This document shows, in pieces, positions 2,150 to 22,400 of a stretch of 44,931 bases of DNA. The notes below the pieces were generated by a model, which was given only the letters and a program-made list of their open reading frames with translations, did not search any database and was not told the DNA's origin. Position numbers and translations under genes: made by a program. Each line of letters opens with the position of its first letter. Position 1 is the stretch's first letter. The stretch is from positions 1-44,931 of IMG/VR virus record IMGVR_UViG_3300013126_000060; one strand, given 5' to 3'. This stretch comes from a virus.

Positions 2150-2588
2150 TACTGAGATAAAGAAAAGAAATAGATTTCACTCAGACGTTAACCCATCGTC
2201 AAAAGCATCTTATAATGAGTTTGTCAAGGAAACAGGAAACAAAGACATCTCCTACGAACTCTTTAAAAGGATAATCGAAGGAGTAAATACTAAAGCTGTT
2301 AATACAGCTATGAAAGGTAGATATGGAATTAGGTTTCCTAAACTTGGTATACTTAAGTTAATTAAAGTAAAACCTACAAAACTAATTAAGAAGATAGACT
2401 GGGGGAGGTATCGTAAAGATAAAGTGTACACTACATACAAAAACCATCACACAGAAGGATATATGTATAGACTTTTCTTTTACTTGTATGAGAAAAAAGT
2501 TATTCCTTTTGGTTTTTATAATTTTAAGTTAGCTAGAACAGCACAAAGACAAATGTGCGTAATGATTAAAGAAAATGAAATACGATAA
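2139..2588 (+). CDS. IHF/HU-like DNA-binding protein (crAss-like conserved)
   Basis: A 149-residue basic protein. Residues about 35-80 have the HU/IHF layout: a helix-helix segment (ISYELFKRIIEGVNTKAVNTA), then a short turn and a strand pair with the pattern RFPKLGILKLIKV. This parallels the G-x-x-V-x-L-P-G-F-G-T-F core of HU and IHF. An IHF-like protein beside the tail genes is a known conserved feature of crAss-like genomes. The C-terminal half (WGRYRKDKVYTTYKNHHTEG onward) is aromatic and basic and is not typical of HU. It could bend or condense DNA during packaging, or it could be a virion component using the same fold. It overlaps its neighbours by 11 and 14 bases. Confidence 0.55.
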   Translation: MQSNTEIKKRNRFHSDVNPSSKASYNEFVKETGNKDISYELFKRIIEGVNTKAVNTAMKGRYGIRFPKLGILKLIKVKPTKLIKKIDWGRYRKDKVYTTYKNHHTEGYMYRLFFYLYEKKVIPFGFYNFKLARTAQRQMCVMIKENEIR

Positions 2589-3414: not shown

Positions 3415-6400
3415 TGGATATTAAAGGTAATCAGAATACCAATGGTCTAAACTTAGACTCGTTAAACTGGCAAATACAAAACAACCAGTTAACTTGGGCA
3501 TTAAATGCAAACATAATGTCCCATGATGGTAATACTTATACCTATACAAATGAAATGTCTAACCAAGTATGTGTAAACTTTGAAACACTTAAACCTGGTT
3601 ACACTATTGTAGGACTACTTAATATTATTGAACAAGATAAAATAGTAGTATTTCTAGTAGGTCCCGGAGGTAAAGGAGAGATAGGAATTATAACTGCAAA
3701 TGGAACTGATTGTGTCGAAGTAGAACAAGTAGAAACAGACTGCGGTTGTGTAAAAGGAAAAGTCCTAAGTGCCCCCACAAAACTAACCTACGAAGACCCA
3801 ATAGTAAACTATGATTGTCCTGATGGTTATAAACTAGTTGAATCTCCAGTAGGTGTTTTCTTTTGCGAAAAAAAACAGTATACTCCAGTAACTAAAGAGT
3901 CAACTTTATTACCTTTAAATTCAGTACAAGACACAGCTTGGGGTTTTGGTAATCCTTCTTTATATGCTCCAGGGTGGAATATTGGTGGTTGGGGGGGAAA
4001 TGGAACATTCGGAAATGGATACACTAAACTAACTAATACATGGTGGAGACTTATACCAGCACCAGCGGGTAAGTTTGGTAGAATAAATCAAATAGCAAAA
4101 TCAGTAAGTAGCGGAGTAAATGTATGGTATTCCTTTACTAGTAATATTTGCATAGAAGAAACTAAAACTTATTACTTTGCAATAGCAGCAGATGACTTTT
4201 TTAGAGTACGACTTGATGGTAATCTTATTCTTGACCCTGCTAATGTAGATTTTGCACAGTGGCAACTTAACCAGTACGGTCCTCCTGGAACACTAAATGA
4301 AGAACGAATTAGTTATATGTATCTTCACATATACCCAATTCAACTTACTCGTGGTGGGCATACTTTACAAATAGAATACATTGATGTAAGCAATCCTGGA
4401 ATGATTGCTGCTGAGATATACGACAATACAGCTGCAGAAATAACCGCAGCAACAGGACCTTCAGACTTAGATATTATTTGGAGTACACAAAATCAAACAT
4501 ATATAGAGTCAATAACGTCTATTTCCTGTCCTTCTGGTTATACACTTATGGCAAATTCAGGTGAAGATTGTAGTCTTGTTTGTGGAAAAATAACTACTGC
4601 ACCTGCAACTCCTAATCTGGAAGCTAATAGTTGTTGTAAGTACGAACCAGTACTAATAGATGAGTGTTGTCAAGATTGTTGTCCTGAATGTGTTAATATC
4701 CAATTTATACTGAAACCTGAATATGTCGCAACCAATCTAGTTGCTATTAAGTGGACAGATTGCGATGGAAACACACATTATCAATCTTTTCAAAGTAATT
4801 TTGGTCCTTTAAATGTAATTAAAGATAGTTGGGTATATGTTGTACCAAGCCAAGAAGATTGGGTACAAAGTATTAATTATTTTCCAATAGACCATGATTG
4901 TGACCCATGCCTCGACCCTAATAATCCTATAAACTGTTGTCTTAACTTTGATATAGAAAATCCTGTATATGCTACTTATAGAGTAGACCAATGTGAAACT
5001 AGGATATACTTTGTTGATAGAAAGAATCCACCACGTTATCTTTCACTTGAATTTCCATTAAACAGAGATGCTTGTGGTAAAGCACAAGATTGTGATGGCA
5101 AAAAACTAGTTACACAGAAAACTTGCGGTGAGCTAAAAATATTCCCAGATACTTGTCACCCCAGAATTTACCCAGATAGAGTATCTAGTGGGGGAGAACT
5201 TAAGGCAGGTACATATCAATTCTCTATTGCTTATTGTGATGAAAATGGTTCAGAGTTTACTGATTACTTTGACTTTACTCAACCTCTTCCTATATATGAA
5301 AAGAAACTAACTAATTTAACTGATTATGTAACTAATCAGTCTATTAGAATTAAAATAGAACATCAAACTAACATCTTTGACTTTTTCAAACTAGTTGTTT
5401 GTGAGACTGTCCAAGGCGGAACTTTTAAAGTTTCTGTTGTTGGAATATACAAGATGGACAAACAGTTCTTAAATGATAGTATAGTATATACTGGACAGAT
5501 TGATAGTGTATTTGCTACAGAAGCTGTATTAGCTCGCACACCATATTATAACACAGCAGGCATAGTAGAAAATCAAAACGATATTCTAATGCTTGCTGAC
5601 TTAGAAAAAGAATATCAATATAACTTCCAACCTTTTGCCAATAAACTTAAACTCCAATGGGAAACAGTTAATATGCCTGTTGGTGGAAACTTTGATTACT
5701 CTAATTCTGAGATAGCTTATTTTTTCCGTACATATCAAAGAGACGAGGTGTATGCTTTTGGTATTAAGTTTAAACTAAAGTCAGGTAAGTATACCGAAGT
5801 ATTTCATATTCCTGGTAGAGCTAAAAACATTTTACCTGGAGATAGTCAGACTGTACCTGTAACTAATCCTGATAACTTTATTGAACCTGGAGATTGTAAA
5901 GACCCACTCGGAACCAAAGAAGGTTGGCAAGTTTACAATACTGCAGGATTTCCAACTGCATTTACACCAGCTACAGAACTAGACTATGAAAAACAATACA
6001 GTTGTGAGATAGGAGCACAATCTAGAGGAGAGTTTGCTTATTGGGAATCTACTGAAAAGTACCCATGTAATGAAGATATATGGGATGAGGATGCTTGGGG
6101 AACTAAACTAGCAGACACTAATATAAGATTTCATAAGTTTCCTGATTCTCGTATTACACACATTCATAATTCACCAACTCTTCCTGGAAATGCTATGAGA
6201 GGATTTGGTGCAAAAGAATATATCCATCCTATTGGGGTAAGAGTAGATGCTAATGTATTTAACAACTTACTTAATAACTTTGAGCTAGCAAATCCTGCTG
6301 ACCCAAGTAAACCATTTAAAGCAAAAGATATTATATGTGGATTTGAGTTAGTTAGAGCAACAAGAGTAAACAACAAATCAATAGTTGCTAAAGGACTCGT

Positions 6401-9400
6401 TTATGACGTAGGTAAGTTTGAGGGAGATGGAAAAGAATACTATTATCCTAATTATCCTTTTAATGATATTGGGTGGAGAGGTAACTCTGTAGCAAATGAC
6501 CCATATATAAAAACTAATGATAATTGGTATTACAAACAAAGACCTTATGGGAATGTTATTTATGACCACTATGGATTCTTACCTCAGTTTAAAAATATAA
6601 TTAACTACAAACATCAAAGATTTACCTTTCATTCTCCAGATACTCACTTTGCTTTTCCTAAAATAGGTTCCGAGTTAAGACTTGAGACAGTTGAGTTTGG
6701 ACAAGTATTAGGACATTTTGTTAATGTAGAAGAACATAGTGAAACCAGATTATATACAGAGTCTGTTTCTATTATTTCTACTTTATTAAGTGGCTTTTTG
6801 TCTATTAATGGCGGAAAGATTGACTTATCTAACTTTATAGCAGATAAAGCACAATTCATGTCAATAATAGAAAAAGTTATTCCTAGAACAAACTATGCTT
6901 GGCAGTATAATGGAGTAGGTCTTTACAATAACTTTAGAAATATAAATAACTTAGGGAACAAAAGAAGAAGAATCAAATTTGGTAATTATGCTTTAAGTGA
7001 TATACTAAACTTTGGAGAAGGAGAAAAATCGTTCCATAATAGGTTTAGAGAAAGTAGCGTTTATTTATCACTAGATAATACTTTTAATCATGAGGCTTCA
7101 GATATAATAGACAACACTAAGTATGTTGCTAGTGAACATTACTCTAACTACGAAGATAATCCTGGAGTAGTTGATGGTAGTAAAGTGACCCGTGCTTATT
7201 ATGCTTCAATAAAAGACAACATCCCAAATCAATATGGACAGTTAAATAATGTACGTTACGTTTCTACTGGTTATACAGTTAATATTAATATTGACCCTGT
7301 ATTTAAAACAGGAAGTATTGAAGAAACTTATTACCCTGCATTTGGTGGAGACACTTATATTAATCAATTTACCCTTAAACGTAAACATGCATTCTTCAGA
7401 CAGAACTATGCAGGTAAACCTAATGACTTAGCAGGCAACTACCATTTACTTCCTAACTTAGGATATCCAACACACTACTACGGAATGAGACCAGAGTTAC
7501 AAGATATTGAAACTTTTTTGCGTAATCAATTAGTTTTATTAATTGGAATCATGATTGGTATAGCTGCAATTGCTGTTGCGGCTTATGCTGCTTTTCCTGC
7601 AGGTAATCACCAACAAATAGTAGACTTAACTGGAGAAGCATTTAAGTTTGGATTAATGATAGTTTTGTTAGATACTTTATCTGATTTGTTTTCAATTACC
7701 CCAGCTTACCATCTAGATAGAGATTTTAAGAATAAAACCATATTTTATCATAATGGAATGATATACTTATTCTCTTATGGTATGCCTGTATTCTTTGTAG
7801 AGTCAGATGTTAACGTAGACTTTAGACATGGGAGAAACGACAAGGAGGAAAACTTTTATAGAGCTAAAGAACTAGGAGAAATCCCAGATGATTGGTTGCA
7901 AGAAATAAGAGTTCCTATTAAGTACGATAACTTCTATCACTATAATATATCTTATTCAGTTCAAAATATACTTAATCCCAATCCTCCTTACAACGAGTTT
8001 ATACCAGAGCTTTATTGCGAGACAGACCTTTATAATAGAGTTATTTACTCTGATATGGGTAATAAGTATCTTAAGAGCGACCCTTGGCTAAACTACAGAA
8101 GAAATAATCTTTATGACTTTCCTAAAACTTCAGGTAAACTAATTGCTCTTAATAGTGTTGAGAACAATAAAGTTTATGCAAGATTTGAAAATAGTACTAA
8201 ACTTTACAACGCAATAATCACCCTTGATAGTAACAATCCACAAGCTCTTGAATTAGGTAATGCAAGTATGTTTAATCAGAAACCTATTGACTTGTCAACT
8301 TCTGATACCGGCTATTTAGGTTCACAACATAAAGCATTTATTAAAACTACTCATGGAGGATTTTGGGTTGATGCACGTAGAGGTCATATTTACCAAGTAT
8401 CAGGTTCATCAGGAGTAGATGAGATTTCTAATAAAGGTACAATGAACTGGTTTAAAGAACATTTACCTTTCCAAATAATTAAAGACATTCCAAACTTCCC
8501 AATAGACAATACATTCAAGGGTATTGGTATTGCAATGGGTTGGGACGAAAGATTCCACAGACTCTTTATAACTAAACTAGATTACAGATTAAAACCTCAA
8601 TATAGAAAACTTGTAACTTATGAGAATAAAAAACTCTATTACAACGACACTATTATTGAGTTAGGAGACCCAACATACTTTGAGAATAAGAGTTGGACAG
8701 CATCATACTCCGTACTAATTAAAGCTTGGTTGTCTTTTCATTCTTTCTTACCTAACAATTATATTGGACTTATAGACCATTTCCAAACAGTTACTAAGAC
8801 AGGAACTTGGAATCACAACTTATCTCCGTTTACTTATCAAACGTATTATAATAAGTTTTATCCGTACATCATTGAGTTTGCAGCAAATGCAGCTCCTAAT
8901 GTAGCTACGATTAACTCAATTACTTATTTCCAAGACATCCATAAATATTATAACAGAGAAGACTATTACTCACTGGGTTCTTATAATGGAGTAAATACAC
9001 CCAACTTTACTAAAGCTATTATCTATAACAAAGAACAGACAAGTGGTGTAGTTAAGTTAGTTGCACAAGTTCCCAATGATGCTCGTCAGATGCTTACTTA
9101 TCCAAGAGTAAGTGGTGGTACTTTTGAGACTCTTTTAACTAAAAGAGAACATAGAAATACTTTTAATGGTTTTTGGGACGCTACTAATAGCAAACTAAAT
9201 AACCAACCTTTGTTCTCTACTGAGTGGTCAAGTGTACAACCAGAGTATCCAATAGACAAAGTAGTTAATACTAAAGCAGTTCTTTACAACTCCATACTTA
9301 CAGGGAAACAAAGAATACGAAGCACATTTTCTAGAGTACGTTTGATACAAGACCTTTATAACAGATATAAATTCATAAACAATATTCAACTATCACAAAT

Positions 9401-9419
9401 AAATAACTCAATAATATGA
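3414..9419 (+). CDS. Giant tail hub/muzzle protein with PA14-like insertion
   Basis: A 2001-residue protein that matches the muzzle/tail-hub protein of crAss-like phages in size, place and style. The N-terminus NGLNLDSLNWQ and the late section with FWVDARRGHIYQV (residues about 1645-1657) and GWDERFHRLFIT are typical of these proteins. The N-terminal third is rich in Cys (C-G-C, C-C-x-D-C-C). Between residues about 160 and 350 lies a beta-sandwich resembling PA14/GLEYA sugar-binding domains (YYFAIAADDFFRVRLDGN, then RGGHTLQIEYIDV), probably an inserted receptor-binding module. Residues 1373-1394 form a long hydrophobic helix (IGIMIGIAAIAVAAYAAF), and a second hydrophobic stretch lies at about 1412-1426, which is unusual for a tail hub. 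The TGA stop overlaps the next ATG. It is the only TGA stop seen in the window. Confidence 0.75.
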   Translation: MDIKGNQNTNGLNLDSLNWQIQNNQLTWALNANIMSHDGNTYTYTNEMSNQVCVNFETLKPGYTIVGLLNIIEQDKIVVFLVGPGGKGEIGIITANGTDCVEVEQVETDCGCVKGKVLSAPTKLTYEDPIVNYDCPDGYKLVESPVGVFFCEKKQYTPVTKESTLLPLNSVQDTAWGFGNPSLYAPGWNIGGWGGNGTFGNGYTKLTNTWWRLIPAPAGKFGRINQIAKSVSSGVNVWYSFTSNICIEETKTYYFAIAADDFFRVRLDGNLILDPANVDFAQWQLNQYGPPGTLNEERISYMYLHIYPIQLTRGGHTLQIEYIDVSNPGMIAAEIYDNTAAEITAATGPSDLDIIWSTQNQTYIESITSISCPSGYTLMANSGEDCSLVCGKITTAPATPNLEANSCCKYEPVLIDECCQDCCPECVNIQFILKPEYVATNLVAIKWTDCDGNTHYQSFQSNFGPLNVIKDSWVYVVPSQEDWVQSINYFPIDHDCDPCLDPNNPINCCLNFDIENPVYATYRVDQCETRIYFVDRKNPPRYLSLEFPLNRDACGKAQDCDGKKLVTQKTCGELKIFPDTCHPRIYPDRVSSGGELKAGTYQFSIAYCDENGSEFTDYFDFTQPLPIYEKKLTNLTDYVTNQSIRIKIEHQTNIFDFFKLVVCETVQGGTFKVSVVGIYKMDKQFLNDSIVYTGQIDSVFATEAVLARTPYYNTAGIVENQNDILMLADLEKEYQYNFQPFANKLKLQWETVNMPVGGNFDYSNSEIAYFFRTYQRDEVYAFGIKFKLKSGKYTEVFHIPGRAKNILPGDSQTVPVTNPDNFIEPGDCKDPLGTKEGWQVYNTAGFPTAFTPATELDYEKQYSCEIGAQSRGEFAYWESTEKYPCNEDIWDEDAWGTKLADTNIRFHKFPDSRITHIHNSPTLPGNAMRGFGAKEYIHPIGVRVDANVFNNLLNNFELANPADPSKPFKAKDIICGFELVRATRVNNKSIVAKGLVYDVGKFEGDGKEYYYPNYPFNDIGWRGNSVANDPYIKTNDNWYYKQRPYGNVIYDHYGFLPQFKNIINYKHQRFTFHSPDTHFAFPKIGSELRLETVEFGQVLGHFVNVEEHSETRLYTESVSIISTLLSGFLSINGGKIDLSNFIADKAQFMSIIEKVIPRTNYAWQYNGVGLYNNFRNINNLGNKRRRIKFGNYALSDILNFGEGEKSFHNRFRESSVYLSLDNTFNHEASDIIDNTKYVASEHYSNYEDNPGVVDGSKVTRAYYASIKDNIPNQYGQLNNVRYVSTGYTVNINIDPVFKTGSIEETYYPAFGGDTYINQFTLKRKHAFFRQNYAGKPNDLAGNYHLLPNLGYPTHYYGMRPELQDIETFLRNQLVLLIGIMIGIAAIAVAAYAAFPAGNHQQIVDLTGEAFKFGLMIVLLDTLSDLFSITPAYHLDRDFKNKTIFYHNGMIYLFSYGMPVFFVESDVNVDFRHGRNDKEENFYRAKELGEIPDDWLQEIRVPIKYDNFYHYNISYSVQNILNPNPPYNEFIPELYCETDLYNRVIYSDMGNKYLKSDPWLNYRRNNLYDFPKTSGKLIALNSVENNKVYARFENSTKLYNAIITLDSNNPQALELGNASMFNQKPIDLSTSDTGYLGSQHKAFIKTTHGGFWVDARRGHIYQVSGSSGVDEISNKGTMNWFKEHLPFQIIKDIPNFPIDNTFKGIGIAMGWDERFHRLFITKLDYRLKPQYRKLVTYENKKLYYNDTIIELGDPTYFENKSWTASYSVLIKAWLSFHSFLPNNYIGLIDHFQTVTKTGTWNHNLSPFTYQTYYNKFYPYIIEFAANAAPNVATINSITYFQDIHKYYNREDYYSLGSYNGVNTPNFTKAIIYNKEQTSGVVKLVAQVPNDARQMLTYPRVSGGTFETLLTKREHRNTFNGFWDATNSKLNNQPLFSTEWSSVQPEYPIDKVVNTKAVLYNSILTGKQRIRSTFSRVRLIQDLYNRYKFINNIQLSQINNSII

Positions 9420-9799
9420 TTAACAAAAACGAAATCATAAGCTCAGTAAAACCTGAGATTGTACTAGGACAAATCTACCACACAAGGGATACCATGCAGA
9501 TTGTACACCACCAAACAACTTCATTTGCAGAACACAAAGCAAGCGAAGAGTATTATGATGGCATTGTAGAATTAGCAGATTCTTTAATTGAATCTTACTT
9601 TGGATGCATGGGTAAAAGACTTAATTATAAAATACCAGCTTCGGAGTATACAAGTCCAGTACCTTACTTAACTAACTTCAAAGAGTATTTAATGAAGCAC
9701 CGTAATGTATTTGGTAGCGAAAGAACTCATCTACAAAATATTATAGATGAGATAATCGCTTTGGTAACTAAGACATTATATTTGCTTAGCTTAAATTAA
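9416..9799 (+). CDS. Small helical ferritin/Dps-like protein (DUF5856-like)
   Basis: A 127-residue, almost wholly helical protein. The motif HHQTTSFAEHKASEEYYDGI (about residues 31-50) followed by LADSLIESYFGCMGK resembles the four-helix, ferritin-like family I know as DUF5856, which is common in phages. The His and Glu residues of helices 1 and 2 sit where Dps-like proteins bind metal, but metal binding is not shown. It overlaps the muzzle gene by four bases (ATGA), so it is probably translated with it. The role in the virion is unknown. It could be a tail chaperone or a minor structural protein. Confidence 0.5.
   Translation: MINKNEIISSVKPEIVLGQIYHTRDTMQIVHHQTTSFAEHKASEEYYDGIVELADSLIESYFGCMGKRLNYKIPASEYTSPVPYLTNFKEYLMKHRNVFGSERTHLQNIIDEIIALVTKTLYLLSLN
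9777..9784 (+). promoter_or_regulatory. Possible -7 box (TATATTTG) inside the end of the DUF5856-like gene
   Basis: TATATTTG matches the Bacteroidota -7 consensus and lies 28 bases before the next ATG. No TTG is found at the expected 19-21 base spacing; the nearest TTTG is only 13 bases upstream. It may be a weak internal promoter or a chance match in AT-rich coding DNA. Confidence 0.3.
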
Positions 9800-9812: not shown

Positions 9813-10049
9813 ATGATGAACTCACTTAAAGAAATGTACTATGCTAAAAAAGGCATGACAATGAAAAAAGGTGGAAAATGGATTCAGAAAGCAATCTCAA
9901 AACCTGGTTCATTTACTGCTCAAGCTAAACGTGCAGGTATGTCTACTAGTGCTTTTAGAGACAAAGTTCTTTCTAATAAGAAAGGATTCTCTTCTACTAC
10001 GGCAAAACGTGCACAACTTGCAAAGACACTTTCTAAAATGAAAAAGTAA
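9813..10049 (+). CDS. Small basic protein, KWIQKAI-type phage domain
   Basis: A 78-residue, strongly basic protein (many Lys). The stretch KWIQKAISKPGSFTAQAKRA (residues about 22-41), followed by helices ending in AKRAQLAKTLSKMKK, is a recurrent short domain in Bacteroidota phage structural blocks. It is small and positively charged and ends in a Lys-rich tail, so binding to DNA or to acidic cargo is plausible but not proven. Two consecutive ATG codons (9813 and 9816) could serve as the start. The stop TAATG overlaps the next start by one base, so it is coupled to the 945-residue protein. Confidence 0.6.
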   Translation: MMNSLKEMYYAKKGMTMKKGGKWIQKAISKPGSFTAQAKRAGMSTSAFRDKVLSNKKGFSSTTAKRAQLAKTLSKMKK

Positions 10050-12886
10050 TGAAGAAGTCTCTACTTGACCACTATAAAATGAGATATAATACTGGAGGTA
10101 AAGTACCAGTACGTAAGACAGGTATGTGGTATCAAGAAGGAGACGTAGTGGTTCCTTCTAATCAAATCACAATGGAAGGTCCCAAAGGACAACCTGATTA
10201 CTTTAAAGAACCAATCTTAGGTAAAGGTATTCCTTCAGGTAATTTAGTTTTAATGAAGCCAGGAGGTAAGTATTATTTTCCTGGAGACAAAGCTGTGTTT
10301 GAAACTAAGAAATACCAAACTGGTAAAAAAGTTAAAAACCCTTCAACTGGCTTTAGTTGGTATTCAAATAAACCTACTTCTTTAGTTTCCCCAACTAAAT
10401 CCCAAGTAGTTGCTAGTCAAAGTCAGCAAAGAAATACAACTACAGTAGCACGACCTGTAAACAATGCTACTCAACTACAACAACAGCAAAATGCACAGAC
10501 TGTAAAAAATGTCGAGGAATTAAGAAAATCTATACGGGAAATATATAAAGAAGATTTTGAGGCAGAAGAAGCTGCAAAAAAAGCAGCAATGCAACCAACT
10601 ACTGAAGATATTGTAATAAAATCAAATCAAGCTCGTGAGAAGATATTTAGTGGGGATGTTTCTTTTGATAATATTTCTGATTGGTTTGCAGCTGCTCCTG
10701 AAAAGTTAAAGTTATCAAGTCCTTATTCTGTGCTTACACCAGGACTAAGTGGTAAAATACCAAAAGGTATAAAACCAGTTACTGATTTTCTAGATAACTA
10801 TGTTAATCCAATTTCTTTTGGAGGTAGTTTTTGGTCTAACGCAACTCAATCAGCAAGTGAGTTTTCAAAAGGAAAAGGAGAAGAGGGAATAAAAAGTTCA
10901 TTAAGAGCTGCATTTGTTCCTGCAGGAATGTTATTAGGACAAAAACTTGCTCCTGGATTACATAGTATAGAAAAAAGTATTGGACAAGGAATACAAAAAA
11001 GAGTAGGAAACATAGGAGTCACTGCAGCACTGAATACCGGACCTTTAGCAAATGCTTTAGTTACAGGATTAGGAAGAGCAGCTATAGGTGCTGGAAAAGC
11101 AGGAACAAAAGCAGGAATACAAGCAGGAGAAAAAGTAGGTGTTCATACAGTATCACTGCCTCCTAGAGAATACCAAATAGGGGGCATGTCTATTCCAGGT
11201 GTTAATGGAACTGTAGTAGCGTCAGTGTCTAACTCGTCAAAAGGCAAAACTAAAAAATATCAAGCAGCTGGTTCAGTAACTAATAATCCTATTGCAGAAG
11301 AAATAATGCAAAGATTCAGAGTTCAGAATCCTATGACTCAAGGTAATTTTAATTATCCTAGTTTTATTGATTTGTCTCAAGCTAGTTCAATAGCAAAAGA
11401 TATTAATAGGTATAAAGACAAGAAAAACTTAACTGATGGACTTAGTGAGGAAGAATTGGCAGCTGTGGCAACAGGTAGGTCTGATGTTAGTCAGAGTGTA
11501 CTAGACAAAGCTAAATTAACTAATCTTAGTCTTAACTTTAATCGTTCAGGTAAGATTGGTAATATAGATATATCAGGAAGGGGAACTGCAGGAGAAATAA
11601 CTAAAGGACAATTTAATCCATTAGATATAAATGCAGGACTTAACTTGGGAGCTTTAGGTTCTATAGATTACTCAGGACAAGTAAATAAAGGACAAAAACT
11701 TAAGTCGGCTCTCAAGAAAGAAAACCTAACTTATAGGAATACCTTTGGCAATGAAACATTAGGAGGTAATTTAGTTTACATACCTAACACATCTTTAACA
11801 GCAGGATTAAATGCTGGCAAAGACTTAAAACTAAACTACAGTTCAACTAAAGGAGAAGACGGTAGATATGTAGATGTAGGAGGTTTATTTAACCCAGGAA
11901 TAGTATCACTAGGATTTAATCAAAGTTATGGACCAGATAAAAAAATTACTAAACAGTCTGTAAAAGGCAGTATAGGTAACGAGAAACGTAAACTATCAGG
12001 TTACAGAACTGTTGATGAAAAAGGAAAAACTTATGAAGGTAAATACGCCAAAACAGAAGGAGATATTACCTATGATGTATCTGCTAATTACGGAAATGAC
12101 GGCCTCCAAAATATAGGTGGAAACTTAACTGCAAGTGATTTATTTAACTTATCTTACTTAAGACAAAGAGAAGGAGAAGGTTTTACCAATACAATAGGTG
12201 CAGAACTTATGCCAGGTCAACCATTAAGTGTTAATTTTAGTAGAGCTTACGATAATCAAGGAATGGATAAAACTACAGTTGGAGGTAATCTTGACTTAGG
12301 AAAAACTCAAGCATCTTTATCTAAGACCTTTTCAAAAGGTCAACCTAGTATTATGGAAGGAAAACTTAATACTAAACTAGGTAAGAATGTTGACCTTTCG
12401 GCTTCAACTAATTTTGTTGGTAATAAACTAAATAAGTATGGACTTACTGCAGGTGTAAATGTGTTTCCTGGATTTAGTGTATCTGCAGGATTAGAGAAAG
12501 AAATAGGAACAGGAAAACCTAAAGTAACTGTTAAACCAACTCTTAATGCTAATCTTATAAAACTTGCTTCTAAAAAGAAAAAGACATTTACACCTCTACC
12601 TAAACAACAGCAAGAATCCCAAGATGGTACTGAGGTATTTAAAAAAGGAGGACAACATGGAGGACTAGACAGATGGTTTGCTGAAAAATGGGTAGATGTA
12701 AAATCAGGAAAAGCATGTGGTCGCCAAGAAGGAGAAAACAGAGCTTATCCAGCTTGTCGTCCTTCTAAACGTATAAGCAGTAAAACTCCTAAAACTAGTT
12801 CAGAACTTTCATCAAAAGAAAAAGCAAGATTCAAGTCCGCAAAGACTTCTTCTCAAAGAATACCTTATAATCATAAAAGAAAATAA
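10049..12886 (+). CDS. Large crAss-type structural/cargo protein with beta-strand repeats and Cys-Arg C-terminal domain
   Basis: A 945-residue protein. The N-terminus (residues about 20-90: VVVPSNQITMEGPKGQPDY, then PGGKYYFPGDKAVFE) is a motif I recognise from crAss-like virion proteins. It is followed by a Gln-rich linker (about 110-160), a helical part, and a Gly/Ala-rich amphipathic stretch (about 290-360). From about residue 500 to 850 come many short, alternating polar/apolar strands separated by Gly/Asn/Lys turns (for example LTAGVNVFPGFSVSAGLEKE), as in outer-membrane beta-barrels or beta-helices. The C-terminus (from about 871: GGLDRWFAEKWVDV, then CGR and YPACRPSKR) is a separate small basic domain found in many phages and also, as I recall, large eukaryotic viruses. 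No enzyme signature is visible. It is probably a virion component, but its function is unknown. Confidence 0.55.
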   Translation: MKKSLLDHYKMRYNTGGKVPVRKTGMWYQEGDVVVPSNQITMEGPKGQPDYFKEPILGKGIPSGNLVLMKPGGKYYFPGDKAVFETKKYQTGKKVKNPSTGFSWYSNKPTSLVSPTKSQVVASQSQQRNTTTVARPVNNATQLQQQQNAQTVKNVEELRKSIREIYKEDFEAEEAAKKAAMQPTTEDIVIKSNQAREKIFSGDVSFDNISDWFAAAPEKLKLSSPYSVLTPGLSGKIPKGIKPVTDFLDNYVNPISFGGSFWSNATQSASEFSKGKGEEGIKSSLRAAFVPAGMLLGQKLAPGLHSIEKSIGQGIQKRVGNIGVTAALNTGPLANALVTGLGRAAIGAGKAGTKAGIQAGEKVGVHTVSLPPREYQIGGMSIPGVNGTVVASVSNSSKGKTKKYQAAGSVTNNPIAEEIMQRFRVQNPMTQGNFNYPSFIDLSQASSIAKDINRYKDKKNLTDGLSEEELAAVATGRSDVSQSVLDKAKLTNLSLNFNRSGKIGNIDISGRGTAGEITKGQFNPLDINAGLNLGALGSIDYSGQVNKGQKLKSALKKENLTYRNTFGNETLGGNLVYIPNTSLTAGLNAGKDLKLNYSSTKGEDGRYVDVGGLFNPGIVSLGFNQSYGPDKKITKQSVKGSIGNEKRKLSGYRTVDEKGKTYEGKYAKTEGDITYDVSANYGNDGLQNIGGNLTASDLFNLSYLRQREGEGFTNTIGAELMPGQPLSVNFSRAYDNQGMDKTTVGGNLDLGKTQASLSKTFSKGQPSIMEGKLNTKLGKNVDLSASTNFVGNKLNKYGLTAGVNVFPGFSVSAGLEKEIGTGKPKVTVKPTLNANLIKLASKKKKTFTPLPKQQQESQDGTEVFKKGGQHGGLDRWFAEKWVDVKSGKACGRQEGENRAYPACRPSKRISSKTPKTSSELSSKEKARFKSAKTSSQRIPYNHKRK

Positions 12887-12897
12887 CAAATAATAAA

Positions 12898-13800
12898 ATG
12901 GCAAATAAACCTAATAATCCTTCTCTTTGGTCTAGAGCTAAGTCTATGGCTAAGAGCAAGTTTGATGTCTATCCTTCAGCCTACGCAAATGGCTGGGCTG
13001 CTAAGTACTATAAATCCAAAGGTGGTACTTGGCGTAAGGGGGAAAAAGGTATGATAATGCAAGGGGGAGGAATGTCTGGCAATATTCCAGTTAAAAGAAT
13101 GAAAACTAAAACTGTTACAGTTTCCCCATCTGGTGACTATAAAACAATCGAAAAACAAGAATTAACTCCTAGAGGAACAAGAGGTTCTTTTAGAACTAGA
13201 AGAACTATGAGAGGTGTGTTACGTGGTGTTCCGAGAGCAAATGACTCTAGGATATACGAAAAAGATGTACCATTACTTCGCAGAGAAGCAGACAAAGAAG
13301 ATAATTCTTACTATGAAACTGAAAATAAAGTTACATCTATGATGAGAAGTGGTGGAGTTAATAACCCAGGATTCAAATCTTTGCCAGGATATGTTCAAGC
13401 TAAAATTAGAGCTAACATGCAAGGAGGAGGTATGGCAGTAAGTAATCCTATGATGATGCCTGTTGTACAAACTGAAAACTATAACATGCCTTCAATGGAT
13501 ATGATAGACCAAGCATCAAATGGACTAACTATGTTCAGAGAAGGAGGTATGCCAGACAGATACAAGAAGATGGGATTCAGAGGAGTAAACCAACCTAAAA
13601 GAACACCAGGTGCATCTAAAAGTCATGCTGTTGTAACTAAGGTAGGAGGAGATTACAAACTAATTCGTTTTGGTCAACAGGGTGTAACTGGGTCTCCTGA
13701 AGGTTCCAAAAGAAATAAAGCATTCAAAGCACGTCACGCAAAAAACATAGCTAAGGGTAAATCCTCAGCTGCATATTGGGCTAACAAAATTAAGTGGTAA
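12898..13800 (+). CDS. Basic phage protein with two recurrent small domains
   Basis: A 300-residue basic protein. The N-terminal domain (residues about 5-45: NPSLWSRAKSMAKSKF, then YPSAYANGWAAKYYKSKGG) and the C-terminal domain (about 225-300: FGQQGVTGSP, then FKARHAKNIAKGKSSAAYWA, ending NKIKW) are both widespread short modules of phage structural-region proteins. Between them is a Met- and Gly-rich flexible region (QGGGMSG, MMMP, EGGMPD). The start follows an A-rich leader (CAAATAATAAAATG). Together with its small neighbours it makes up a cluster of Lys/Arg-rich proteins around the 945-residue protein. A nucleic-acid binding or packaging role is possible; none is demonstrated. Confidence 0.55.
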   Translation: MANKPNNPSLWSRAKSMAKSKFDVYPSAYANGWAAKYYKSKGGTWRKGEKGMIMQGGGMSGNIPVKRMKTKTVTVSPSGDYKTIEKQELTPRGTRGSFRTRRTMRGVLRGVPRANDSRIYEKDVPLLRREADKEDNSYYETENKVTSMMRSGGVNNPGFKSLPGYVQAKIRANMQGGGMAVSNPMMMPVVQTENYNMPSMDMIDQASNGLTMFREGGMPDRYKKMGFRGVNQPKRTPGASKSHAVVTKVGGDYKLIRFGQQGVTGSPEGSKRNKAFKARHAKNIAKGKSSAAYWANKIKW

Positions 13801-14068: not shown

Positions 14069-17000
14069 ATGAAAACAGGTAAAAATAGAGTTAAAGGTTT
14101 AAAGTCTCAGCTGTTTAAGAAGTATCAAACAGACCCTGTAGTACTTAACCCGTCTTCACAAAACAATGTGCCTTCTTGGGGAACCCCAGAAGTTACTCCA
14201 TTGATAACTAACATTGAAGACATATATAAAGATTACGACCCATATAATACTCAATACGCTGTAAATAAAAGTAAAGAAAAGCTAGTTAATACTAAGTATA
14301 CTAGTATGCTTGATAAGATTAAGCAGAAAGACCAAGAAAACTTTGCTTCTCAATCTGATGTATATGGTCCTATGTTTCCGTATCAGTATCCAAAAGCTGA
14401 TGTATCAGGCGGCACAGAACCTGTAACTAAACTAGATGAAAAGAATCTTACTATAGGACAAACTACTTCTAGTTCTATTACTAGTGATAGTTCTAAACCA
14501 AAAGAATCCTATACTTGGAGAGACTACTCAAGAATGGGACTTGGTATGATTAATACTGCATTATCTTTAAAAGAAGATATTAAGAACAGAGAAGCAACTA
14601 TCAAGAAAATTAATGACCAAAATGACCAAGGTAGACATGATAATAACTACTTTCAGTTTGCAGCAAGACCTGGTAGTCAAAAAATAATCTATGCAGAAGA
14701 AGGTGCTGAGATTCGCACAGGAACTGATACAGGCGCTGAAGAAGCAGAACTAGAAAGAGGTGAGTACTTTATATTACCTGATGGAGATGAATACTCAGTA
14801 GGTGGAAAGAAACACTCACAAGGTGGAGAGAAGTTTGTACTTCCTGAAGGAACTATTGTATTCTCTGATTACTTAAAGATTCCTGGAACTAATACAACTT
14901 TTGCAAAAGAAGCTAAGAAATACCCACTAGAGAAGTACAGTGAAGTTATCCAAAACCAACACGCTAAGAGTGTAGATAGAAATACTGCACAGATACTTTA
15001 TGACCGTAACTCTAAAAAGCTTATGCAGTTATTCCAAATGCAGCAAGCTATGAACGGAAACTCAAACGGAGAAGTTAAAGATGAAGTACAAGCTAAACGT
15101 GGTATGCTTTATGGTCAAGTAGGTTTGTATAATGACGTAACTACAGGACTTGGTATTAGTGATGCATTACCTAACTGGGCAAGATTGTCTAATCAAATGC
15201 AGACAAGTATGGCTCAAAATGCACAACAGATAAACGCAGAGAGATACAGAAACCAACAACTATCACAAACTAACTCTGCTCCTACTGCATTTTCATTAGA
15301 TGAAAGAGGAAGACCTTACGTGCAAACTATGTTAGCTAATCCTGAAATGCAATACCCATATCCAGAGTTTGCTCCAAGAGGATACAACAATACATTAGAT
15401 ATGATTGATATAACTCCTGAAGAGTTGGCATCAAGTATGAGTAATGTGTTTGATAAACTAGGAGTAACAGATAGTGAAAGACGTACTCAGTTTATAGCTC
15501 AAATGGTTGGTAAGGCAAATCAAGGATATTTATTTGGAGCATCAAGTCTTGCAAACCGAGAACTAAACGCTAAGTATCCTAATGCACCTAAAACTAGGTC
15601 TGATGTAGTTGAGTCAGTTGTTAAGTTATCAGAAAGTGATAAAGACAAATTAATTCTTGAACAGGCGTATAAAATTAATCCCTATGACCAAAGAAATTAT
15701 GCTGCTAATGTTGCGTTATATGCTAGTGTAAGAGATGCTGCTAAGAATGATTTTGAGACTGCTAAGAAAAAATTTGAAAAAAACCAAATAACAAAAGAAG
15801 AATTGCAGAGTGAAGAAAATCGCTATAATGAGTGGGAAAATGATTTAAAAGCAAAACAAAACGACCTTTACAATTCAATGAGTGGTCCATTTGGGGGAAC
15901 ACCTTTAGGGCCTAGATATGGTCAGCTTTCTTCTACACTATATGACGTATCAACTCAACCTTTACTAACTACTAATACAGGAAATACATCACCAGTATTA
16001 ACTGCAGAATCATTTATACCAGGACTAGACCCAAAAGCTATACAAACTACTGTAAACAATCTAATGCAAGGTTTACAGTTCGATAACGAAGAACAAGCAA
16101 ACAAAGCACGAGAAGAACTAACTAACGAGTTAAAGATTAAAGCAGCTGCTAAGATTGATGCCTACGGTAAAACAACTACTGGTGCAGATAAAAGTTTACA
16201 ACAACCAGTTAACACTTCTACTAATAACGTAAAAAAACAAGCTGACCCTGCTGATGGTGGAACAGTTACCGACGGAAATGCAGTTGATATTAATTCTAGA
16301 CACTGGACTAAAATAGCAGGAACAGGTGGTGTAGAAAGAAAAGTATGGAAAGAAGGACAAGGACAATGGGCAGGTAAAAAACTAAGTGAGCAGTACGGTG
16401 ATAATCCTATATTGTTACTTAGGAATAGAATAAATGAAAACTATGATGTTTTATCGTCACGTTTAGTTGATGCATACAGAGGACAACTAAAAAATAAAAA
16501 TCTTGCTACTGGAAAAGTAGAAGATATGCTTGATGTTCTTGATGGAGGTAATAACTCATTAATTAAGTTTAGACAATTCTTTACTGAAATTGGAAGAGAT
16601 ACTGAACTGTTTGACCCAATGTTAGATAGAGCAGGTAAAGGTGGAGAAAATAAAAATCAAGAAAAAACACTAGCGTTATTTAAGGAGTACATAGAGTCAA
16701 ATACATTCAGAGAAGATGTAGAGGGTAAAGACGGTAAGGGAGGTAATCCTGCTTTATTGAATATGCCTTTAATAAAAGGAAAAATAGTTAAAGGTGCAAA
16801 TGGTAACTACACATTAGAAGAAGGGGCAACTTTTGATAAAGATTTTACAGAAAAATATCAAGCTGCTTATCGTGCTATAGCTGCAGTTAAAAAACAACAA
16901 CCTAAAGATAAAGACCTGCTTAAAGGATTTAGAGTTAGTCCTGAAGGTTTGTCTGACCAAACATTTTTAGGACTTCCTATATCTCCAACTGATAGATGGG

Positions 17001-17863
17001 AAGGCAATACTTATATAGGTCAGATAGTAGGATTTGAAGATGAAGAGTTTAGAAAGAAAAAAGAAGAACCACCATCTCCCGATGTAGTTACTACTTCTCC
17101 TGGAGGTCCTGTACCTGGTAAAGTAGGTCCTGCTCCCCAAGGTAATTACGAGAAAGCAATCTTTGATATTGCACAACTTGCTCCTGAGTTTTATGGGCTA
17201 GCTAATTCCGAGATATTCCCATACGTACCATTTGATTATAATGCTCCGTATGTAATGCCTCAAACTCTTAACATTCAACCTCAACTACAAGATATTGATA
17301 ACTCTTATGTTGCAGCTTTAAGAGCAGGTGCTGACCCTAATGCAGCATTTATGTCAAGTCTTAGTGCTAAACAAAGAATCTATTCAGAGAAACAAAACTT
17401 TGATGCACAACAAAGAGCAGCCGCAGACCAACAAAACGCAAAGTATCGTTGGCAAGAAGATATTCAAGATATTAACTCTTTAGATAGAGTATACAATACT
17501 TTGATGGCCTCAGCAGATGATGCAAGAACTTCTCAAATACAAGACATTGTACGCAGTGCAACACAGAAACGTAATGTTTGGAACTTTGAGGAAAACCGTA
17601 AGAAACTTTACTTTGATAACTTTGTACGCAACTACAACTGGGATGGTAATACCGGTCAAGCTACTTTAAGTAACCCACAAGGATATGACCCGTTTAATCT
17701 TGCAATGACTGCGGAAATGTTGAACGCAGCTTACGGTACTAAGCCTGCTACTAAAACTATAATTACAACTTCTAAAACAGCAACTGAACCTTCCAAGACT
17801 ACAACTACTACTACTACAAGTACAGTAGAAGAAGAGAAAAAGAAAAAAGAAGCTAAAAAATAA
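14069..17863 (+). CDS. crAss-like structural/cargo protein, 1264 residues
   Basis: First gene after P2. Residues about 225-290 hold a motif typical of crAss-like phage proteins: AELERGEYFILPDGDEY, then GGKKHSQGGEKFVLPEGT, then VFSDYLKIPG, followed by TFAKEAKKY. The rest is mostly helical with long charged segments (for example around residue 565: FEKNQITKEELQSEENRY). Helices continue to about residue 1210. The C-terminus is a Thr/Ser/Lys linker with a run of seven Thr and then a Glu/Lys tail. I see no catalytic motif. By position, just upstream of the 538-residue helical protein and the giant proteins, it is a likely virion cargo or tail-associated protein. The Pro-rich patch at about residues 1010-1030 (EEPPSPDVVTTSPGGPVPGK) is a linker between two domains. 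Confidence 0.6.
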   Translation: MKTGKNRVKGLKSQLFKKYQTDPVVLNPSSQNNVPSWGTPEVTPLITNIEDIYKDYDPYNTQYAVNKSKEKLVNTKYTSMLDKIKQKDQENFASQSDVYGPMFPYQYPKADVSGGTEPVTKLDEKNLTIGQTTSSSITSDSSKPKESYTWRDYSRMGLGMINTALSLKEDIKNREATIKKINDQNDQGRHDNNYFQFAARPGSQKIIYAEEGAEIRTGTDTGAEEAELERGEYFILPDGDEYSVGGKKHSQGGEKFVLPEGTIVFSDYLKIPGTNTTFAKEAKKYPLEKYSEVIQNQHAKSVDRNTAQILYDRNSKKLMQLFQMQQAMNGNSNGEVKDEVQAKRGMLYGQVGLYNDVTTGLGISDALPNWARLSNQMQTSMAQNAQQINAERYRNQQLSQTNSAPTAFSLDERGRPYVQTMLANPEMQYPYPEFAPRGYNNTLDMIDITPEELASSMSNVFDKLGVTDSERRTQFIAQMVGKANQGYLFGASSLANRELNAKYPNAPKTRSDVVESVVKLSESDKDKLILEQAYKINPYDQRNYAANVALYASVRDAAKNDFETAKKKFEKNQITKEELQSEENRYNEWENDLKAKQNDLYNSMSGPFGGTPLGPRYGQLSSTLYDVSTQPLLTTNTGNTSPVLTAESFIPGLDPKAIQTTVNNLMQGLQFDNEEQANKAREELTNELKIKAAAKIDAYGKTTTGADKSLQQPVNTSTNNVKKQADPADGGTVTDGNAVDINSRHWTKIAGTGGVERKVWKEGQGQWAGKKLSEQYGDNPILLLRNRINENYDVLSSRLVDAYRGQLKNKNLATGKVEDMLDVLDGGNNSLIKFRQFFTEIGRDTELFDPMLDRAGKGGENKNQEKTLALFKEYIESNTFREDVEGKDGKGGNPALLNMPLIKGKIVKGANGNYTLEEGATFDKDFTEKYQAAYRAIAAVKKQQPKDKDLLKGFRVSPEGLSDQTFLGLPISPTDRWEGNTYIGQIVGFEDEEFRKKKEEPPSPDVVTTSPGGPVPGKVGPAPQGNYEKAIFDIAQLAPEFYGLANSEIFPYVPFDYNAPYVMPQTLNIQPQLQDIDNSYVAALRAGADPNAAFMSSLSAKQRIYSEKQNFDAQQRAAADQQNAKYRWQEDIQDINSLDRVYNTLMASADDARTSQIQDIVRSATQKRNVWNFEENRKKLYFDNFVRNYNWDGNTGQATLSNPQGYDPFNLAMTAEMLNAAYGTKPATKTIITTSKTATEPSKTTTTTTTSTVEEEKKKKEAKK

Positions 17864-17868
17864 TCAAC

Positions 17869-19485
17869 ATGGCAATTTCAGAACAACATAATAGATTTCA
17901 GTTTAATGAATACGTAAGTCCTATTGCTTCTGAAGACCTAATTAAGGTAGCACTTAAGAAGCAGGAAATGTATGATGAAGGTCGTAACAAAATCAAACAA
18001 GTATATGATAACTACGGCCAACTAAGAAATACTATCATTAACGATAACGCACGTAACTACTTTGACCAAGAGTTAAGTAAAGTAGTTAAAGGTATCCAAG
18101 CAAATGCAGGACTTGACTTTGCTAACATTGGTAACGTAGAAGCAGTTATTAACTTAGGCAAACCATTCGAGAATGACAAGTATATTAAGAATGCACTTGA
18201 GAATGGAGCAGAAGCTCAGAGAAGATACGCTGTACTGGAGAAGATGGATAAGAGTCAAAGAAACTCTGACAATGATTTAGTATACTTGCATGATATTATG
18301 GAGTACCAAAAAAGTGGCGGATTAGATACTAAACTTCAAAAGAATAAAAGTTACGAATCCTACATTGATATTCGTAAGAAACTAGAAGAAGCTGAGAAAT
18401 TAGTAGATGCTCAAGAAGACTATGCTATACAAAAAGGAAACGCTCCTCAAGGATACTTTGAACAAGTAACTATTAAAAGAAAAAGAGCAGAAGACATTTA
18501 TAATAGAGCTATGAGCTTTATGAACCCAGACGAACTAAGACAACTGCAAATTCATGCTCAAGCAGATATGTATCGTTTAGGAAGTGATGCAGTTTACCAA
18601 ACGTGGGTAGGACACAATAAAGAACAGAAGTTGTTATCTCAAGATGTAATTAAAAACGCTAAGAGACAACTTGGAGAGTACGCATCTATTCCTCCAGGTA
18701 AAATGACAGCTGAGCAAATTCAAACATCTAACTACTTGCAGAAACTAATCCAAAGTCAAGAGGGAGTAATAGAAGCTGCTCAACAAAACATAGATATGAA
18801 TCCTGATGACTTTGATATTGGAGAATACACTGGTTTCTTCACTAAAAGATTTGTAGAAGGATTTGCTAAGAGATTTGCAATCGAAAATAGAAAAGTTGAC
18901 CTCAAAGAAGACGTTGCTTGGAAACTAGCTACTCAACATAGCTATGAACTGTCTCGTATAAGTGCACAAGAAGCTTCAACTAAACGAGTAGAGAACTATA
19001 AAAAGTCTCTTGACTTTGTTCCTGAATCTGGTGCGGACACAACCCTTATTTCTAGATTGAGTGGAAGTATTGACTTTAATTCTTTAACAGGTACTACTAT
19101 GTCTGCTAAACTTGATGACTTAAGAACTAAAGTTGTAGCACTTACTGGTTTAGATGCAAACACAAAAACAAGTATAGAAAGACAAATTGATAATCTAAAA
19201 AGTATTGCAGAACTAGGAACCGACCCAAAGAATGCATATAAGATAGTTAGAGTTGGTGGAAACTATGTTACTTCTATTGGTGACTTTATCAATAATAGTA
19301 ACCTAGCTGAACTATTAAGTCAACCTACAACTTATGAAGCAGGTCTAACTCCAACAGCTCAAGAAACCTATAGTAAAGAATATGCAAAACTTATGGGAGA
19401 AATAAATGTATATCAAAATACTGGTGCTGCAGGTGGTTTATATGACCAACTAATTAAAGCAAAGAAACCTTCAACACAAGAATAA
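17869..19485 (+). CDS. Helical cargo protein, crAss-like
   Basis: A 538-residue, nearly all-helical protein with no Cys or membrane segment in its visible core. It starts MAISEQHNRFQFNEYVSPI, followed by IASEDLIKVALKKQEMYDEG; this opening is similar in style to the all-helical cargo protein filling the tail barrel and head of crAss-like virions. It lies five bases after the previous stop and 14 bases before the next start, so the three genes form one operon. High charge and long amphipathic helices (for example residues about 150-220) suggest a protein that can unfold and pass through the tail channel. The role as internal cargo is inferred from gene order and composition. Confidence 0.55.
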   Translation: MAISEQHNRFQFNEYVSPIASEDLIKVALKKQEMYDEGRNKIKQVYDNYGQLRNTIINDNARNYFDQELSKVVKGIQANAGLDFANIGNVEAVINLGKPFENDKYIKNALENGAEAQRRYAVLEKMDKSQRNSDNDLVYLHDIMEYQKSGGLDTKLQKNKSYESYIDIRKKLEEAEKLVDAQEDYAIQKGNAPQGYFEQVTIKRKRAEDIYNRAMSFMNPDELRQLQIHAQADMYRLGSDAVYQTWVGHNKEQKLLSQDVIKNAKRQLGEYASIPPGKMTAEQIQTSNYLQKLIQSQEGVIEAAQQNIDMNPDDFDIGEYTGFFTKRFVEGFAKRFAIENRKVDLKEDVAWKLATQHSYELSRISAQEASTKRVENYKKSLDFVPESGADTTLISRLSGSIDFNSLTGTTMSAKLDDLRTKVVALTGLDANTKTSIERQIDNLKSIAELGTDPKNAYKIVRVGGNYVTSIGDFINNSNLAELLSQPTTYEAGLTPTAQETYSKEYAKLMGEINVYQNTGAAGGLYDQLIKAKKPSTQE

Positions 19486-19499
19486 ATAAATAATAAAAG

Positions 19500-22400
19500 A
19501 TGATTTCACCTGGAGGAATTAAAGCATTAAATCTTATTAAACAGGGAGTAGCACCTGATGTAGCAATGTCTCAGGCTGCTAACTACAATATTGAACTTGC
19601 TACTAGAAGAAATCTAATGACAAGTTCATTAGGTGCTCCATCTACTCAAGTATCAGCTACTCAACCTATTTCTTCGGCAGCTATTCCAGATGGACAATCT
19701 TTAAGTACTTTGTTTCCTGGTAAATCTCCCTATGCTAAAGCAAATCCTAATACGCCTTCATTAACTAGGATGCCTGTTTTTGGTTCAGCCATTGATAATG
19801 CAAGTGAAGTTAATAAAGTACTAAAGACAATACCTAACGCTAATAAGATACCTGCTATTCCGCGGACAAATTACTTTGACCAAAAAGTAATTAATAAAGC
19901 AATTACTTTTAGTAACTTACCTAAGATAACCGAAAGATTTACAGAAAAAGTAACTACTCAAACAGAAGAAGAAAAGAAAAAACTAAGAGACTATTTCAAT
20001 ACTCCAAAACCCATAACTGAAAAACCTATTGAAATGGGTATAAGTGATGAGTTGCAGATGATGTTAAATCGTTCTCTACTCAATGGTACTCCTATTGCTG
20101 CTGCAGCTAAGTTTCTTGATGACAATCAACTTAAAAGTTTTAAAACTACTGCAGATTTTCTTGAGGGGAAGTCTATTATGCTTGAGGACCAACAAAGAGT
20201 TAAACCAGGAGTAAGAGCAATAAGACCAACAATTATACCTCAAGACAAAGGTGTATCTCCAGAAGACTTAGTTTATAAAAAAAGCATCAAACCAATAATG
20301 TTGCCACAGGCAACTCCTTACTATAAAACTAATTATAGTGAGTTTGAAAAAGTAACAGCAGATTTTATAGATGATGAGAATAATAAAACACTTCCCCAAA
20401 TACAACAAAACTATAGTAAGATAAAAGATGTAATTAAAAGGGAGAGTCAAAAAGCAGCACTTGACCCTTACCGTGGTCAAATTACAATGGATGAAGACCA
20501 ATCTGTTTTAAATGCTGGGGTAATTGGTAGATATAATGAGTTTGAGAGGGGAATAACTTCTAGTTACGAAAAAAGATACTTATTTAAAAAAGCTGAAATA
20601 GAATACAATAGAATACTTGAATTTACAAAAAACTCACCAACCCCAGATAAAGATGTAGAGTCTTTAATTAAAGAGGCTTTTAATAAAGCTTTAGGCTTTG
20701 CAGCTATAGGTAAAAAATCTTCTGACATATTAAAAGAGATTCATCCAGATTTATACATTAATAGACCTCTTACAGATGAGGATAAAGAAAAAGGGGGACC
20801 AAAATACGGTTACACTTTGGGTATTGGATTTTTAGATGCTTTTGAAAAAGGACAAATAAAAGAGTTGGGTGTATTAGATAGAAATGACCCATTCATAGAT
20901 AATACATTCAGGAATAAACTATTGTATCTTAAGACAATGATGGATAATGGTATGCAGAGAGCAAACTACAATCATCAGCTTGAGTTATTTAAAAAGAAAG
21001 AAAGTATCTATAACGAAGCAGCTAAGAAACAATTAACTAAAGAAGAATCAGATGTAATCAATAGAACTTTTAGTCAAATAGATAAAGAAATAAAAGCATC
21101 AGATAAGTTTGGTTCTAGTTTATTAAAAGTACAAGGAAAAGAAAATTTACTTAAAAACCAAGAACTTAAGTTTGTTGCTGGAACTTATATAGAAGATATT
21201 TTCGAACAACAAAAAGAAAGTGAGGCATATACAAAAGCAGGAGGAGGTATACAATTTAATCCTTCAATATACCTACCTGGTGTTGGTATGCTTATGCATG
21301 ACTATAAAAGTAAAGCTAGAAGAGATGTTTTTGTTAGAACATCTCAATATCTTGGTAAGGGGGCACTTGATTTAGGATTAAACTTAGTTGCATTTGGAGC
21401 TAATGTAGTTGGATTAGGAACTAGATATTCAAGAATTCAAAGAGTCGTAGACGAAGCAACAACTCCTATAGAGTTACATGACTTTAATAAACTTGATAAG
21501 TTTGGAAATCCAGTTTCCGACAATCAAGCGTTTTGGAAAGATAAATATGGAAAAACACACTATCAATTTAGTGGCAGTTTGTATCAAGGTGCACAAATGA
21601 CACCATTAATTGTTGCTACTGTATTTGGTGGACAAGGTATTGCTTCACTAGGAGGTAGAGCCTTTAGTGGGGTAACTAAATTGAGTAGTAGGTTTTCTTC
21701 AGCTGGCAGAACATTAATTAGTTCTAGAGCTTCTTCAGCATTTGCAACCACTTTTGCAGAGACAGGAAGTTACGCTACAGCATTGACAAGAACAATGGCC
21801 AGCAGTGCTAATCCAATTATTAAAGCTGCTGCTTATAGAGCACCTGCTATGTTAGCTATGGGTCCTATGGTATATTCACAATCTTTTATACATGCATACA
21901 ATGATATGTATGAAAAAGGTATTGAAGATGCTAGAGAAAAAGCACATGCAATAGCAGCAGTAAGCACTGCTATAGAAATAGCTACTGAAAACATATTTCC
22001 TGATATGAAGTTCTTAGATGACTTTGCTCAGAAGGGAGTTACTTTCGGAGGTAAGTGGAAAGGTACACCAACTCAATGGGAAACTTTATACAGTAGTGTT
22101 TATGGTAATGTATTTAGTAATAGAACATTACAATATTTAGCAGCAAACAGTTATAAGAGAATTAATCAAGGATTAGCTGGTGCACGTTTTATGATTGCTC
22201 GTGGTGTAGAGGAAGGAATTGAAGAAGTTTCAGCCGAACTAATGGACTATGCTGCACAAAATGCAGGACTAGCTGCAATGCAGGGTGAAAAGCCAAGAGA
22301 GTTGACTCTTGAGGATTTATTAACTGCAGCTACTGGTGCTTTCTTTGGTCCTCCTATTGGAATAGGAAAACAAATAAAAAACTACTCTAAAGAAAGAAAC

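Follow-up and report, generated by a model that had tools for sequence, protein, structure and literature searches.

Gene content of the locus

The DNA analyzed here (the window) is a crAss-like phage fragment, the 44.9-kb IMG/VR virus record IMGVR_UViG_3300013126_000060, taken at its full length of 44,931 nucleotides. It harbors the Crassvirales virion gene block, with ring, muzzle, C1 and RNA-polymerase-type cargo genes in their conserved order, and all genes discussed lie on the plus strand. Tail ring protein 2 (CrAss_Ring_2, 1520-2149, E = 5.7e-15) and tail ring protein 1 (CrAss_Ring_1, 2575-3414, E = 1.3e-6) are followed by the 2001-residue muzzle protein (crAss_MUZ, 3414-9419, E = 1.8e-35), a DUF5856 protein identified by profile matches (phrog_858, 9416-9799), the 945-residue mosaic protein that is the subject of this analysis (10049-12886), a 300-residue protein (12898-13800), and then five large proteins. 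The first of these (14069-17863) is a homolog of cargo protein C1, recognized by an HMM of the domain at 438-535 in crAss001 gp45, which is portal-bound (425-552 in the structure, PMC10172136). The HMM places this domain in 14069-17863 and not in the 945-residue protein, which is thus not C1 but comes in addition to it, between C1 and the muzzle. The 538-residue protein at 17869-19485 is assigned by its position to cargo protein C2 (gp46) and is similar to a Leptolyngbya phage protein (L083 25583-28120, lb_845, E = 3e-8). The giant proteins of the window belong to the gp47/gp49/gp50-like cargo set: a gp47-like virion protein (19500-27719, pairwise match to crAss001, E = 1.5e-9), a gp50-like virion RNA polymerase protein (27737-36340, pairwise match, E = 2.5e-15), and a gp49-like protein (37054-43791) assigned from a weak match to crAss001 (E = 0.017) and its position.

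Judged by the muzzle, the nearest isolates are Leptolyngbya phage Lbo-JY46 (34% identity) and the Cellulophaga phages phi4:1 and phi17:2 (30%), all of which infect diderm hosts. That the closest isolate infects a cyanobacterium suggests that crAss-like tails also occur outside Bacteroidota hosts.

Architecture of the 945-residue protein

The open reading frame is intact and encodes four recognizable parts: an N-terminal domain, a helical middle, a beta meander, and one half of DUF5872. The N-terminal domain (residues 23-92, 10115-10324; VVVPSNQITMEGPKGQPDYF...PILG...MKPG..Y.FPGD.AV) was found by iterated HMM search to be common to 53 other proteins of crAss-like contigs (54 in all), mostly at their N-terminus but sometimes internally, and its carriers include phi4:1 gp040, confirmed in the virion by mass spectrometry (MS), and a Leptolyngbya phage protein. 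Residues ~100-440 are helix-like (alpha moment z 4.3) and contain the linker motif IGGMSIPGVNG (residues 377-387, 11177-11209), which in an alignment is nearly invariant among relatives, where it is found C-terminally, past the beta module. The meander itself occupies residues ~490-840 (11516-12568). It is followed by a basic linker and by the second half of Pfam DUF5872 (profile 48-110; residues 865-933, 12641-12847, E = 2.8e-13). DUF5872 is split over adjacent genes here, since a weak match to its first half starts the 300-residue neighbor (12898-13041), the C-terminal module of which matches phrog_7595, and the same two-gene split recurs in other crAss-like loci.

Judged by hydropathy, there is no apparent signal peptide: the N-terminus (MKKSLLDHYKMRYNTGGKVPVRKTG) is polar and basic with no hydrophobic stretch, and the highest 19-residue hydropathy anywhere in the protein is only 1.03. 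The Sec signal peptide of host outer-membrane proteins (OMPs) would not be expected if the protein is delivered by the virion. A Pfam scan of the protein gave no match to Phage_lysozyme2.

The strand meander resembles an outer-membrane barrel

The original prediction described a series of alternating polar and apolar strands at 11540-12620 (residues 498-858; its example, LTAGVNVFPGFSVSAGLEKE, is residues 799-818) and likened them to a porin or a beta-helix. The strand series is real. The mean hydrophobic moment at 180 degrees over residues 480-860 lies above that of shuffled sequences (z = 3.1), with values of -0.3 to +0.9 elsewhere in the protein and of -2.4 to +0.5 in the other large open reading frames of the window. 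A transmembrane-barrel HMM with states for up strand, outer loop, down strand and inner turn, trained without strand labels on 17 E. coli OMPs only, recovered the known residue preferences (outward L, Y, V, G, F and A; inward G, S, T and N), and gave residues 485-840 a z of 5.9-6.2 and +0.096 nats/residue. This falls within the range of the 17 OMPs themselves when each was left out in turn and scored over its whole barrel region (z 1.3-7.2, 0.047-0.157 nats/residue). Among 321 windows from 35 non-OMP E. coli proteins, the maximal z was 2.9, and none combined z > 2.5 with LLR > 0.03. Beta-helical, propeller, lipocalin and soluble-barrel controls, a set without MORN and OspA proteins, scored between -2.0 and 1.6 (lipocalin -0.1; propellers -0.3 to 1.1; NlpE -0.8), and the beta-solenoids among them reached 1.2 (Ag43 passenger) and 1.6 (phi4:1 pectate lyases). 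With solenoids at no more than about 1.6 and the meander at about 6, the porin-like half of the original comparison is favored over the beta-helix half; Pfam yielded no solenoid family match. In a scan of crAss-like loci (7543 windows of 150 residues), z exceeded 4 in four module groups only, namely the meander itself and the ORF A (5.6-6.9), L058/L034 (5.6 for L058) and L045 (4.2) modules described below.

Decoding with the HMM yields 22 strands with a mean length of 10.8 residues, as well as a 40-residue stretch that may hold 2-4 more, for a total of about 22-26. The apolar fraction is 0.69 on the outward face and 0.05 on the inward face. Turns on one side are 1-4 residues long, and the loops on the opposite side are mostly longer (1-12, one of 40). 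An apolar/polar dyad over ~10-residue strands, tight turns paired with longer loops, and OMP-like residue statistics are hallmarks of outer-membrane beta-barrels, and a transmembrane-barrel fold for residues ~490-840 is likely on these sequence properties. The aromatic content of the outward face (0.16) is low compared to five OMPs (0.20-0.34). Sequence searches found no relatives of the strand stretch in viral contigs, phages, PDB or Pfam, and no significant match to a known OMP family in Pfam, NCBIfam or PDB. MORN repeats were considered as well, and were matched neither in the window nor in any Pfam scan of the barrel-like modules.

Relatives carry a shorter module of the same pattern

Nine contigs whose muzzles share 73-76% identity at the C-terminus, together with L097 and L098, have two genes, ORF A and ORF B, at the place of the 945-residue protein (L091, one of the nine, stops before the ORF A gene). 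ORF A (409-484 residues) shares the N-terminal domain of the 945-residue protein; a brief helical section and an amphipathic strand module of ~220 residues come next, and the protein closes with the SIPGVNG tail. ORF B is a homolog of the 300-residue protein of the window, and by eye its middle resembles the helical middle of the 945-residue protein, which therefore looks like a reshuffled, longer version. The meander and the ORF A module align weakly but colinearly, without significance (hhalign P 0.05; HMM scores no better than shuffles), and the claim is consequently limited to a shared slot and a shared pattern. The ORF A modules pass the same alternation test with z of 5.1-5.2. When residues change between relatives, outward positions keep an apolar residue in 64 of 87 cells, and inward positions keep a polar one in 130 of 140; with dN well below dS, this indicates that selection maintains one apolar face in the ORF A module. 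In L090 and L092, the beta module and the SIPGVNG tail of ORF A are separated by an acidic, helical insert of ~70 residues (~385-455; GGEVEDEEDERENDKEMVEGIADILRRVKDKKNRKQIAKKMVEDF...); this segment is also present in L002 and L097, and in a variant form in L034.

Prediction by AF2 from the single sequence of the meander alone gave a pLDDT of 31 and no usable model. With seven sequences of ORF A, AF2 predicted 13 up-down antiparallel strands at 163-374 with a pLDDT of ~60-76 (lower in some stretches); the protein outside this region was poorly predicted, and closure of the barrel is not confident. The top Foldseek matches of this model were VDAC, KdgM and porins, with E from 9e-4 and low TM-scores of 0.16-0.2. 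With VIA-align, the ten best matches (Z 8.8-9.7) were all outer-membrane barrels, and LptD, PapC, a TonB receptor and OmpF were matched at Z 8-9.7. OspA, a soluble single-layer sheet, was also among the VIA matches (Z 7.6, 2.0 A over 73 residues). The structural matches of the model are almost all outer-membrane barrels, and ORF A may be regarded as a ~14-strand version of the barrel-like module.

A variable slot between muzzle and C1

The gene for the 945-residue protein lies in a slot between muzzle and C1 that adjoins the tail-tip gene and is variable in content. In phi4:1 (gp041) and csAssE (75248-77668) this slot holds Phage_lysozyme2 proteins. Both phi4:1 gp041 and its neighbor gp040 are annotated as virion proteins from MS/MS proteomics, and gp040 (L084:26710-29394) fuses the N-terminal domain (25-85) to the C1 portal-bound domain (349-452), a fusion that appears to tie the mosaic slot proteins to the ejection cargo. 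The original prediction took the 945-residue protein for a phage structural protein, and its synteny between muzzle and C1, along with the occurrence of its N-terminal domain in an MS-confirmed virion protein, supports this placement and a role in entry, making a location in the virion probable.

Other lineages carry comparable mosaics. In L058 and L034, which belong to another crAss-like lineage, the muzzle-adjacent protein combines the N-terminal domain, DUF5872 and a strand module, and the latter matches the Pfam Autotransporter beta-domain (E 2.1e-4 and 2.5e-3, below the gathering score). L045 carries another barrel-like module, located in an ORF B-type neighbor. The number of strands thus ranges from about 8-11 (L058) through 14 (ORF A) to 22-26 (the 945-residue protein). 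In Leptolyngbya phage Lbo-JY46 (L083; cyanobacterial host), a protein with the N-terminal domain directly follows the muzzle, and the N-terminal-domain protein of the Leptolyngbya phage has a weak transglycosylase match.

A putative virion-borne barrel in cell entry

The chances appear about even that the 945-residue protein is an accessory component of the virion that acts in entry by way of a barrel domain that becomes inserted in the outer membrane of the host. According to this model, the N-terminal domain would link the protein to the virion and its ejection cargo, and residues ~490-840 would be a precursor, unfolded or folded only loosely, of a transmembrane beta-barrel with 22-26 strands. 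Upon infection, the protein would leave through the muzzle, arrive at the diderm host's outer membrane or in its periplasm, and fold its barrel into the outer membrane, either unaided or via the host BAM machinery, where it would anchor the tail or give passage to the C1/C2/RNA-polymerase cargo. The C1 protein of crAss001 is believed to exit the tail N-terminus first and partly unfolded, and to form a channel with gp46 (PMC10172136), and the 945-residue protein may be released by the same route. What the data show are the strand pattern and its specificity against other beta folds, the synteny, the recurrence of comparable modules and the lack of an apparent signal peptide; we infer the protein's place in the virion, its delivery and insertion into the membrane, and its role as pore or anchor. 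That an entire group of crAss-like phages carries a swappable transmembrane beta-barrel (of about 8-11, 14 or 22-26 strands) as the functional element of an entry protein in the virion, one that lacks a signal peptide and is inserted from the phage into the host outer membrane, is a more tentative proposition, falling somewhat short of an even chance.

The original prediction went further and proposed an outer-membrane pore for the passage of DNA and giant cargo, a claim that stands unproven. By our own estimate from simple barrel geometry, the lumen of a barrel with 22-26 strands would accommodate DNA or an unfolded chain, whereas the modules of ORF A (~14 strands) and L058 (~8-11 strands) would, as monomers, be too narrow for either. 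The strong variation in strand number between lineages makes a fixed-bore DNA conduit common to all unlikely, and agrees better with an anchor in the outer membrane, or with a channel for protein or solute, than with a shared DNA conduit.

The notion that the strands instead form soluble, water-exposed beta structure (an open meander resembling OspA or a MORN array, or else a beta-sandwich), serving as a spacer or binding surface of a virion protein that makes no membrane contact, is unlikely but has to be taken seriously. The OspA match of the ORF A model, the presence of MORN-repeat proteins among the viral matches, the modest aromatic content of the outward face and the low pLDDT of the meander are all consistent with it. 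Nevertheless, one face is largely apolar and has been kept so in the evolution of the ORF A module, and the related slot module of L058/L034 matches an autotransporter beta-domain; the soluble beta controls (beta-helices, propellers, a lipocalin and a soluble barrel) do not score on the OMP HMM, and the Pfam scans argue against MORN repeats. The apolar face would also be hard to explain in a surface domain, which bears on the improbable reading that the slot protein is a virion protein with a variable module that binds outside the cell to a receptor or glycan, in which case the strands would make up a receptor-binding or decoy domain and no membrane pore. Slot modules do diverge fast and swap, as would suit an arms race at the surface, but the slot proteins of phi4:1 and csAssE carry a tail lysozyme, which acts after adsorption.

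A barrel need not come from the virion. The phage lambda Lom protein is a phage-encoded outer-membrane protein that is made in the infected cell, and BFVD contains entries from uncultured Caudovirales named porin or OMP beta-barrel. The 945-residue protein might similarly be produced in the infected cell, for instance for superinfection exclusion, and not be part of the virion. The absence of an apparent signal peptide, the position of the gene inside the tail/cargo block between muzzle and C1, and the N-terminal domain shared with an MS-confirmed virion protein all speak against this, and such an origin is hardly to be expected. Insertion of a virion-borne barrel remains the preferred reading.

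Comparison with established entry proteins

The 945-residue protein is an accessory, mosaic protein that is distinct from the conserved C1 ejection protein. Like C1 (crAss001 gp45), it is encoded beside the muzzle gene and is thought to act in cell entry, and phi4:1 gp040 joins domains of both. However, gp45 has been resolved as a helical segment with a compact portal-bound domain, and a transmembrane helix is predicted for it (PMC10172136), whereas the 945-residue protein has a beta meander and neither the C1 domain nor such a transmembrane helix. It shares its genomic slot with phi4:1 gp041 and the csAssE protein, but not their Phage_lysozyme2 domain. It resembles bacterial outer-membrane beta-barrels (porins, LptD, ushers, and the autotransporter beta-domain) in its dyad pattern, in the length of its strands, in combining tight turns with longer loops, and in an HMM score in the OMP range; it differs in lacking a signal peptide and a family-level match, and in that the barrel-like stretch is one part of a phage mosaic protein.

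The means by which phages cross the outer membrane are understood for few systems, and the outer-membrane ejection components described in PMC10172136 and PMC10925440 are helical, including the ejection proteins of T7 and N4-like phages (PMC10172136; PMC10925440), among which DEV gp73 forms channels in lipid bilayers (PMC10925440). For T7 gp14 and DEV gp73, both carried in the virion, insertion into the host outer membrane has been proposed or demonstrated, and we infer the same for the 945-residue protein; the former two are alpha-helical, whereas the 945-residue protein would use a beta-barrel. If correct, this would set a beta-barrel beside the helical ejection pores that T7-like and N4-like phages use, as a second solution, and it could account for the way in which crAss-like phages seal or open the outer membrane. 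A search of the open-licence literature found no virion-borne beta-barrel in phages, which is not proof of absence. A phage-borne barrel would further raise the question of whether it can be inserted from the virion without Sec, and perhaps without BAM, and the recurrence of barrel-like modules in a slot otherwise occupied by tail lysozymes provides a defined set of genes for testing.

Muzzle-adjacent proteins of further contigs show additional variety. Those of L024 (5911-9351) and L005 (5911-8970) are mosaics with enzyme-like stretches (for example HEGTHDW, metallopeptidase-like by eye), for which Pfam gave only DUF5872. In L013 (8605-12189), the C1 portal-bound domain is matched twice within a single protein (43-158 and 543-637).
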